This document shows positions 19,792-37,772 of a stretch of 37,772 nt of DNA, in pieces. Position numbers and translations under genes: made by a program. The notes under the pieces were generated by a model that was not told the DNA's origin, searched no databases, and saw only the letters and a program-made list of their open reading frames with translations. Numbering within the stretch: the first letter of the stretch is position 1; every line of letters starts with the position of its first letter. This DNA comes from Spirochaetia bacterium. GTDB lineage: Bacteria; Spirochaetota; Spirochaetia; Treponematales; Treponemataceae. The stretch is taken from NCBI GenBank assembly GCA_022768685.1, contig JALEPQ010000175.1, forward strand, positions 1-37,772, in the 5' to 3' direction.

Positions 19792-19903
19792 CAGGGCAAA
19801 CGCATTATAAACAAAAATCCGATTTTTTGGCTCCCAGTCACGGTTGCGTGATTCAAAACCGCGCAATAATGCGCTACACGCTTTTTGTGGTATAGAAACT
19901 ATT
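19792..19903 (+). repeat. Family C repeat, copy C1 (3' half missing)
   Basis: 112 bp matching 37425-37536 with 2 mismatches counted by eye; the 3' stem arm present in C2 and C3 is absent. Confidence 0.9.
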
Positions 19904-19912
19904 CTGGCTTTT

Positions 19913-20076
19913 CTCAGGTTTGTAAAGCTAAAAAATGCTCTCGCATTTTTTTTAACGCTTTGCTATTTATCACAAGCCAGCACAGCTGGCTTCTCTCAGG
20001 TTTGTAAAGCTAAAAAATGCTCTCGCATTTTTTTTAACGCTTTGCTATTTATCACAAGCCAGCACAGCTGGCTTCT
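19913..20076. repeat. Two tandem copies of an 82-bp unit containing a terminator-like hairpin
   Basis: ctcaggtttgtaaagctaaaaaatgctctcgcattttttttaacgctttgctatttatcacaagccagcacagctggcttct at 19913-19994 and 19995-20076. Confidence 0.95.
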
Positions 20077-20077
20077 C

Positions 20078-20896
20078 TCACATGCTGAAATCTTTTCCTA
20101 AATAGATTTCTCTTGCTACCTGGCTGTTTAGGATTTCTTCTTTTGAACCCTGAATCATAATTGTCCCCTGATTTACAATTATGGCGCGGTCTGTAATTTC
20201 CAGGGTATCTCTTACGTTATGATCTGTAATCAAAATACCAATTCCACGTTTGGAAAGAAGACGAATCATACTTTTTATATCCGCAACAGCAATAGGGTCA
20301 ATTCCAGCAAAGGGTTCATCCAGCAGAAGAAATTTTGGTTCCATTGCTAATGATCTTGCTATTTCTGTACGTCTGCGTTCACCACCAGAAAGTGTATATG
20401 CCTTCTGTTTTCTGATTCTGCCAATAGAAAATTCTTCAATTAAATCTTCAAGCCGCTGTTTTTTCTCATGATATGAAAGATCCTTTCTTGTTTCCAGAAT
20501 TGACCAGATATTTTCTTCAACTGTAAATTTTCTGAAAACAGACGGTTCCTGTGGAAGATATGCAATTCCTAATCGGGCTCTTTTATACATAGGAAGTTTA
20601 GTAATACACTGTTCATCAAGAAATACATCACCTTGTGTTGGCTTATAAAAACCTACAACCATATAAAATGTAGTGGTTTTTCCAGCTCCATTTGGCCCCA
20701 ACAGACCAAGCACTTCTCCCACTTGCATTGAAAATTCAACACCACGTACTACTTTTTTATGGCCAAACTGTTTATAAAGGCTGGAAACCCTGAGAATATG
20801 ATTATCAGGTGTTATGATTTTATTTTGTTCTGTTCCTGATTCTGAGGTAACTACCGTTGTTTCTTCAATAATTTCATCACTCATTGCTATTCTCAC
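20078..20896 (-). CDS. lptB: LPS-export-type ABC transporter ATP-binding protein
   Basis: 272 aa; LLGPNGAGKTTTFYMVVGFYKPTQGDVFLD, YLPQEPSVFRKFTVEENI, LSGGERRRTEIARSLA, LLDEPFAGIDPIAVADIK. Start may be MSDEII (20884). Confidence 0.92.
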   Translation of the reverse strand: MRIAMSDEIIEETTVVTSESGTEQNKIITPDNHILRVSSLYKQFGHKKVVRGVEFSMQVGEVLGLLGPNGAGKTTTFYMVVGFYKPTQGDVFLDEQCITKLPMYKRARLGIAYLPQEPSVFRKFTVEENIWSILETRKDLSYHEKKQRLEDLIEEFSIGRIRKQKAYTLSGGERRRTEIARSLAMEPKFLLLDEPFAGIDPIAVADIKSMIRLLSKRGIGILITDHNVRDTLEITDRAIIVNQGTIMIQGSKEEILNSQVAREIYLGKDFSM

Positions 20897-33001: not shown

Positions 33002-33099
33002 AAATTTTTCCTTATGATGTAATAAATATAATGATTATACCATAAAAATCAAAGAAAAAAATCAGTTAAAACAACTGTTTATCTTTTTGCAAATTTCAT

Positions 33100-33221
33100 T
33101 TTACTCTGTCCCTTTTGTCAGAAATCGCACACACTTTACTCTGTCCCTTTTGTAATTTGTAAGTAGTTTTATGTTTTACTCTGTCCCCTTTGTAAGAAAT
33201 CGTACACTTTACTCTGTCCCC
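33100..33221 (-). repeat. Family A repeat cluster, 4 copies
   Basis: TTTACTCTGTCCC(C) at 33100, 33135, 33175 and 33208. Confidence 0.9.
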
Positions 33222-33400
33222 TTTGTAAGCACAATGCACAGTTCGCAATGCGCAATTCGCAATTATCATCCACTTTCCGAAAACACTGCCAGTCATTCTG
33301 AATCTTCTTAAGGGGTCTGTCCCCTTTGTAAGAACAATGCACAATTCGCAATGGCAATTATTATCACCATTACGAAAACACTACCAGTCATTCTGAGTCT
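33221..33400. repeat. Two diverged ~80-bp direct copies (period ~103 bp) containing family D units and GTCATTCTGARTCT
   Basis: ctttgtaagcacaatgcacagttcgcaatg...cgaaaacactgccagtcattctgaatct and ctttgtaagaacaatgcacaattcgcaatg...cgaaaacactaccagtcattctgagtct. Confidence 0.85.
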
Positions 33401-33401
33401 G

Positions 33402-33476
33402 TCAAAACCGCGAACTAGTTCGCTACACGCGCAGAACGGCAGTGAAACTATATTCCGTCCTGCGAGTGTTTTTGCC
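33402..33476 (+). repeat. Family C structured repeat, copy C3 (divergent)
   Basis: tcaaaaccgcgaactagttcgctacacgcgcagaacggcagtgaaactatattccgtcctgcgagtgtttttg; same skeleton as 37486-37577 with different stem arms. Confidence 0.75.
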
Positions 33477-33519
33477 ATCCTCTGCATTCCTTCCCGTGTT
33501 TTCAATAGAATCTTCTTAA

Positions 33520-33646
33520 GGGGTCTGTCCCTTTTGTAATTTGTAAGTAGTTTATTATTTTACTCTGTCCCCTTTGTAATTTGTAAGTAGTTTAATATTT
33601 TACTCTGTCCCCTTTGTCAGAAATCGCACACACTTTACTCTGTCCC
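33520..33646 (-). repeat. Family A repeat cluster, 3 full copies plus one GGGGTCTGTCCC variant
   Basis: GGGGTCTGTCCC at 33520; TTTACTCTGTCCC(C) at 33559, 33599 and 33634. Confidence 0.9.
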
Positions 33647-33673
33647 TTTTGTAAGTAGTTTAAATAAAGTGCC

Positions 33674-36873: not shown

Positions 36874-37368
36874 CTAGAATTGAACATCCAGCCCTGTAGC
36901 TGCCGCATCAGCTGCTAATTTTTCTCTAAAAGCCTTAAGTTTTTCTTTTAGTTCAGGATACTTTATGGAAAGAATCTGCACAGCAAGATAACCTGCATTT
37001 TTAGCACTGTTGATTCCTACTGTTGCAACAGGAATCTGAGGTGGCATCTGCACAATTGAAAGGAGAGCATCCATTCCACCAAGTCCGTTAGATTTTTCTG
37101 TACAGCATTCAAGAGGAACCCCAATTACTGGTAAAGTTGTGGCACCAGCAATTACACCAGGAAGTGCTGCAGCAAGTCCAGCTCCTGCAATGATAACTTC
37201 ACAACCATCAGCTTCTACCTGTTTTACAGTTTCATGAAGTAATGCTCCTGCACGGTGAGCACTTAAAATATAAGCTTTGTAATCCACGCCAAATTCTGTA
37301 AGAATATCAGCGGCCTTCTTCATTGTATCTTTATCAGATTTACTACCAAAAAAAATTGCTACTTTCAT
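36874..37368 (-). CDS. purE: N5-carboxyaminoimidazole ribonucleotide mutase / AIR carboxylase
   Basis: From ATG at 37368: MKVAIFFGSKSDKDTMKKAADIL...ILSAHRAGALL...VIIAGAGLAAALPGVIAG. ORF-track start 37407 is longer. Confidence 0.93.
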   Translation of the reverse strand: MKVAIFFGSKSDKDTMKKAADILTEFGVDYKAYILSAHRAGALLHETVKQVEADGCEVIIAGAGLAAALPGVIAGATTLPVIGVPLECCTEKSNGLGGMDALLSIVQMPPQIPVATVGINSAKNAGYLAVQILSIKYPELKEKLKAFREKLAADAAATGLDVQF

Positions 37369-37424
37369 AAAGACAGTTATAACACAAAGGAAATAAAGTT
37401 GCCACACATCTGGCCAGACTTATC

Positions 37425-37580
37425 CAGGGCAAACGCATTATAAACAAATATTCGATTTTTTGGCTCCCAGTCACGGTTGCGTGATTCAAAACCGCGCAAT
37501 AATGCGCTACACGCTTTTTGTGGTATAGAAACTATTGAACTGCCGCTTCGCAGCAGCCACAAAAAGAGTGTTTTTGAACC
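37425..37580 (+). repeat. Family C structured repeat, copy C2 (complete)
   Basis: First 112 bp match C1; then continues through the second stem arm ccacaaaaagagtgt and closing gtttttgaacc. Confidence 0.9.
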
Positions 37581-37645
37581 ACGCCCCGATCCTTCGCACC
37601 AACATTACGGAAAAGCCTTTATAATGCGGAAGCCCTGCAGACTTA

Positions 37646-37772
37646 TCAGTTTGATTTATTAAATTCAGCAGCTATGTATGGAGGGAGATTTTCAGAAGAA
37701 AACAGGGCTTTTTTATTACTCTTAAACATTTCTGGATTTTTTTCTACAAATTCTAAAGCTTTTTTTACACTG
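37646..37772 (-). CDS. 3' end of an unidentified CDS, partial
   Basis: Minus-strand frame reads ...SVKKALEFVEKNPEMFKSNKKALFSSENLPPYIAAEFNKSN* with stop at 37646-37648; open to the window edge. Confidence 0.5.
   Translation of the reverse strand, partial: SVKKALEFVEKNPEMFKSNKKALFSSENLPPYIAAEFNKSN

Follow-up and report, generated by a model that had tools for sequence, protein, structure and literature searches.

A covarying, RNA-like structured module associated with a MITE in the genus Treponema

ERIC/IRU, NEMIS/Correia, RUP, YPAL, RPE, and CIR are intergenic repeats of 100 to 200 bp that have inverted ends and occur in many copies. ERIC is co-transcribed and appears to destabilize upstream mRNA depending on its orientation, and the transcript folds of ERIC-type MITEs are very stable (PMC2229807). 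A review of MITEs, which makes no mention of Treponema or ISAs1, describes riboswitch- or terminator-like roles suggested for MITE transcripts (PMC10969869).

The element described here is nearest in kind to ERIC and related bacterial MITEs, with no sequence homology claimed. It shares with them an intergenic location, TIRs, and a stable fold, which in this case is predicted, and an orientation bias was also seen. It differs in having a longer TIR, a 10-bp ISAs1-type TSD rather than TA, and a multi-branched core with a conserved internal loop, a three-way junction, a GNRA hairpin, and strong covariation, and it belongs to another phylum. Most descriptions of bacterial MITE transcripts are of long stem-loops, whereas the core here is branched and has conserved unpaired positions. 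No description of the element was found in literature searches of open-licence papers.

The window (the whole stretch of DNA that was analyzed, 37,772 nucleotides) contains three copies. Two of them, C2 and C3, had been pointed out in a sequence-only reading of the window, and both are present at the coordinates given there. The third, C1, is truncated. The features are as follows.

37425..37637, minus strand: C2 MITE, complete, non-autonomous, 213 bp, with 20-bp TIRs and a perfect 10-bp TSD
37415..37424, no strand: C2 left TSD, cagacttatc, same letters as 37638-37647
37638..37647, no strand: C2 right TSD, cagacttatc, same letters as the left TSD
37425..37444, no strand: C2 left TIR, CAGGGCAAACGCATTATAAA, from an inverted-repeat search; outer 14 bp as in the TIR of the G145 IS
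37618..37637, no strand: C2 right TIR, TTTATAATGCGGAAGCCCTG, from an inverted-repeat search
37458..37604, minus strand: C2 structured module, full length, 148 model positions (covariance model R1)
37494..37507, minus strand: C2 P2 hairpin of the three-way junction, GCGCAATAATGCGC (folding and covariation)
37509..37523, minus strand: C2 P3 arm, ACACGCTTTTTGTGG on the plus strand, pairs with 37556-37570
37556..37570, minus strand: C2 P3 second arm, pairs with 37509-37523
36874..37407, minus strand: purE (AIR carboxylase), downstream of C2 on the folded strand (PF00731, E = 8e-57)
33375..33502, minus strand: C3 module, short subtype, without the P4 hairpin (covariance model R1)
33410-33423: C3 P2 hairpin, GCGAACTAGTTCGC (folding)
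19792..19903, minus strand: C1, truncated MITE copy, left TIR through GAAACTATT (pattern match)

Against model R1, the C2 module scores 130.3 bits (E = 1e-31) and the C3 module 107.8 bits (E = 1e-25), both copies being part of the training set. C3 lies upstream of ftsH (minus strand) and divergent from fliS, and C1 lies upstream of the RNase Y gene (minus strand). Downstream of the folded strand, each of the three copies in the window has a gene on the minus strand (the RNase Y gene, ftsH, or purE).

C2 and C3 belong to one repeat family spread across the genus Treponema. Their likeness had been open to explanation by chance, but the degenerate skeleton has three matches in the window, with none expected and none in shuffled sequence. 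The hairpin pattern has 99 matches in the 2.28-Mb genome to which the window belongs, and its reversed control has none. A looser skeleton is found in 42 of 146 same-genus genomes (reversed control, 0), with the most copies, 54, in the window's own genome. The sequence-only reading had suggested that more copies be collected and a covariance model built. The model recovers the family in the same genus, with matches in at least 17 of the 29 sampled genomes. It has no match in 267 genomes of the phylum's other genera. These counts are lower bounds, with no more than 10 candidates scored per genome. Among complete chromosomes, G145 has 43 matches, G076 has 13, and G119 has none. Copy number reaches approximately 100 per gut Treponema genome. 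Among named records, those with full-length copies are Treponema from the rumen and gut, the isolates C6A8 and JC4 among them. In other phyla, a few records match the loose pattern alone, and none of the viral contigs searched contains the element. The copies of the window's own genome are nearly identical and recent, as are those of G145. Many MITE copies of the window's own genome lie at contig ends; with so large a share there, the element breaks the assembly and its true copy number may differ.

The sequence-only reading knew of no matching family, and Rfam (4227 families) agrees with it. Neither gathering nor relaxed thresholds gave a match at the element in the window, and none of 20 loci gave one above threshold at the element. 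A sub-threshold RsmY match overlaps one copy, L146 (18.2 bits; threshold, 57).

In both C2 and C3, the proposed folding holds for the P2 hairpins, for the long ACAC.../...GTGT stems, in which one mismatch is conserved, and for the outer CAAAA/TTTTG stem. Folding z-scores for C2 and C3 are −4.4 and −2.6 on the plus strand, and −4.4 and −2.9 on the minus strand. The limits first drawn for the element were too narrow. The structured unit extends approximately 28 nucleotides further on each side, for a total of about 150 nucleotides, and alignment of 67 copies adds two stems, the outer Pa and the variable Pb, as well as a conserved internal loop. There are two subtypes, a long one with the P4 hairpin (C2) and a short one without it (C3). 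Unpaired positions of the loop and junction are conserved across the subtypes. RNAalifold alone missed P2 and P4; the structure was finished by hand and then tested.

Covariation was measured over the 53-pair structure in 47 non-redundant diverse copies, against shuffled and slid-partner controls, and is strong. The score is 0.470, compared with 0.150 in shuffles and at most 0.126 when the partner is slid one to three columns. Paired cells make up 90.5% (71.1% in shuffles), double changes occur in 42 of the 53 pairs (shuffled mean 31.6), and there are 470 double-change cells against 155 shuffled. The apparent invariance of P1 and of the ACAC/GTGT part of P3 is an effect of the search pattern, in which both were fixed. 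In G076, P1 reads TAAAA/TTTTA in one copy, and this part of P3 reads AGAC/GTCT in most copies. The proposal that selection on a folded RNA or single-stranded DNA lies behind the C2/C3 pattern is thus supported by covariation in 47 copies. That part of the sequence-only reading stands; it missed the dispersal of the repeat by a MITE, the 150-nucleotide unit, and the strand that folds, which is the opposite of the one it drew.

The minus strand is identified by its excess of G·U over A·C and by its GNRA apical loops. On the strand drawn earlier, the non-Watson-Crick cells of paired columns include 81 A·C and 22 G·T, an A·C excess that corresponds to a G·U excess on the opposite strand. The minus-strand alignment A3 has 74 G·U and 31 A·C, with a single badly aligned pair accounting for nine of the A·C. 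In 56 deduplicated copies there are 82 G·U against 24 A·C and 102 G·A against 20 C·T, with 31 pairs favoring G·U and two favoring A·C; this alignment was fitted to the model, and unfitted alignments agree on the G·U excess. The P4 loop on the minus strand reads GUGA, GAAA, GAGA, GUAA, GCAA, and similar, and is GNRA in 36 of 61 tetraloops scored. Wobble pairs are few, at approximately 3% of cells, which is below many RNAs. The strand asymmetry is compatible with RNA and single-stranded DNA alike. Single-stranded DNA also tolerates G·T better than A·C, and GNA/GNRA and apical GAA loops are stable in DNA too.

Some 30 further intact copies in the same genome match the C2 MITE in approximate length and in their ends, including the 20-bp TIRs, and many copies have a 10-bp TSD. 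In the relative G145 there are MITEs of 215 bp that share this TIR and have 10-bp TSDs, as well as a 1279-bp IS with TIR CAGGGCAAACGCATGTAAAA and 10-bp TSDs of its own. The outer 14 bp of that TIR are identical to those of the MITE. This IS encodes a 388-amino-acid transposase with PF13808 (DDE_Tnp_1_assoc) and PF01609 (DDE_Tnp_1) domains, an architecture that we take to be ISAs1-type. The TIRs, the TSD length, and the ends held in common with the autonomous IS of G145 are those of an ISAs1-derived MITE, and because of the shared ends an ISAs1-type transposase almost certainly moves it. Such a transposase was not found in the fragmented assembly of the window's own genome. The MITE resembles ISAs1-family IS (H-repeat type transposases) in the outer 14 bp of the TIR and the TSD length, but it has no transposase gene, and the G145 IS has no structured module (no covariance-model match).

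In other lineages, the module lies within units with different or no recognizable TIRs. Outer inverted repeats surround about one-third of the copies examined outside the window's own genome, and several are locus-specific. At four loci (L275, L273, L123, and L230), short-type copies lie between locus-specific inverted repeats of approximately 17 to 32 bp that are perfect or nearly so, with no recognizable target duplication.

Nearly all copies are intergenic, and MITE-borne copies lie mostly upstream of genes. By gene pair, 32 MITE-borne copies are between divergent, 28 between tandem, and four between convergent genes. Of the tandem copies, 24 have the folded strand in sense orientation and four have it in antisense (p = 2e-4), with gene contexts taken from ORF length rather than annotation and copies that share ancestry and are not fully independent. 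This bias rules out random orientation of the MITE copies. Copies outside the MITE class have no significant orientation bias (19:14). Those of G062 that lack TIRs lie between convergent genes in eight of 14 cases (p = 5e-5 against MITE copies). In several of them the ends of both genes are 35 to 60 nucleotides from the core. The outer stems of these TIR-less copies bear an A-tract and a T-tract.

At one such gene pair, the insert is absent from G052. Because the outer stems are locus-specific, one candidate explanation was that the element had inserted into the loop of an existing terminator. G052 speaks against this, since it lacks the whole insert including the outer arms, with approximately 14 nucleotides left. 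The outer stem thus probably comes with the element. The absence from G052 may be a loss of the insert.

Two pairs of orthologous copies show the fate of the module in place. In L295 and L384, with flanks 82% and 92% identical, GGGG/CCCC is replaced by GGAG/CTCC and GCTG/CAGC by GTTG/CAAC. In L245 and L385, the flanks are 85% and 76% identical and the module is without any difference. The paired replacements of the one pair and the unchanged module of the other, though from few loci, favor maintenance after insertion over mere recent amplification.

The TIR-less copies of G062 and similar genomes resemble Rho-independent terminators in that A-tract/stem/T-tract ends adjoin gene ends, with a T tract in 35 of 65 TIR-less long copies against two of 64 MITE copies. 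They differ in a conserved interior of about 120 nucleotides that is unnecessary for termination. Integron attC sites are likewise conserved in structure above sequence and fold as single strands, but the present element has a three-way junction, no R-box pair, and no cassette arrays seen. Identity with attC was rejected, as paired RYYYAAC/GTTRRRY core sites occur in 0 of 224 strand readings. REP/BIME with RAYT are also dispersed intergenic hairpins, whereas this element is a much larger multi-helix unit that moved inside a TIR/TSD MITE. The four nucleotides preceding the P2 hairpin are GTGT in 76 copies, compared with a GTAG-type tetranucleotide in REP.

A covariation-supported, RNA-like structure is here tied to a mobile element with known ends. 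The reading that we favor, with some reserve, is that the non-autonomous element carries a structured RNA module of approximately 150 nucleotides, ERIC-like in kind, that acts in transcripts. Its carrier in several lineages, that of the window included, is the 213- to 215-bp MITE, with an ISAs1-type transposase almost certainly as the mover. From the outside inward, the predicted minus-strand fold is composed of Pa, a purine-rich 4x4 internal loop, two base pairs with tandem G·A/A·G, and Pb, followed by the three-way junction of P1, P2, and P3, with P3 bearing the GNRA-capped P4. Intergenic insertion would lead to co-transcription with neighboring genes, and the module would then work as RNA. 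Upstream of a gene it could form a structured leader segment that alters transcript processing or stability, as in ERIC. Between convergent genes, where the outer stem has A and T tracts, it may have a role in the 3' end or terminator region. More tentatively, the module may be a new class of functional RNA that binds a protein or ligand or cleaves itself. It would travel as cargo of the MITE and would have been domesticated repeatedly across the genus as a leader or 3'-end regulator, with the conserved purine loop and three-way junction as its site of action. The isolates Treponema sp. C6A8 and JC4 allow testing whether transposon cargo became regulatory RNA.

The strand asymmetry would equally fit one exposed DNA strand, and an unlikely alternative is that it is in single-stranded DNA that the fold is important. 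In that case the minus strand would be exposed on the lagging strand or at excision and bound by a protein such as a transposase, recombinase, or replication protein, and mobility rather than a host function would be conserved. The mobility and many copies of the element, its few wobble pairs, and apical GAA and GNRA loops that are very stable in DNA are in keeping with this. The ISAs1-type IS of G145 does without the module, however, the orientation of MITE copies tracks neighboring genes, and in orthologous copies the fold was kept and repaired in place after insertion.

The orthologous copies speak also against an ordinary MITE palindrome without function, which we regard as improbable. Recent amplification of a few source copies would then account for the similarity of copies, and palindrome correction (gene conversion or template switching) for the paired changes. 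The copies of the window's own genome and G145 are indeed recent, and MITE transcripts usually fold (PMC2229807). Strand-neutral correction would not give G·U in excess of A·C or GNRA loops, however, nor does it suit unpaired positions conserved across subtypes or a module that is identical despite flank differences of 15 to 24%. A double-stranded DNA cruciform or protein-binding palindrome would suit the long imperfect palindromes and the outer inverted repeats, but extrusion of both strands predicts equal G·T and A·C. The asymmetry in the deduplicated copies (82 to 24, and 31 to two by pair) makes it very improbable.

Variants of the MITE and neighboring repeats were also observed. Two G145 copies (L337 and L351) are 335-bp versions with extra internal sequence and 10-bp TSDs. 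Two others (L336 and L338) measure 149 and 101 bp. They keep the TIRs and 10-bp TSDs and have a reduced or missing core; they are a natural control for the necessity of the core in transposition. In the window, C3 is surrounded at 33078-33670 by densely arrayed repeats of a different family (TTTACTCTGTCCCCTTTGTAA, GGGGTCTGTCCCC), and a related repeat, GGGACAGAGTAAAGTG, interrupts one MITE copy (L083). A partial left arm of a second C3-type element (GAAAACACTGCCAGTCATTCTGAATCT) is located at 33275-33305, approximately 95 nucleotides before C3. At 19904-20080, a block of repeats (CTGGCTTTTCTCAGGTTTGTAAAGC...) truncates C1.
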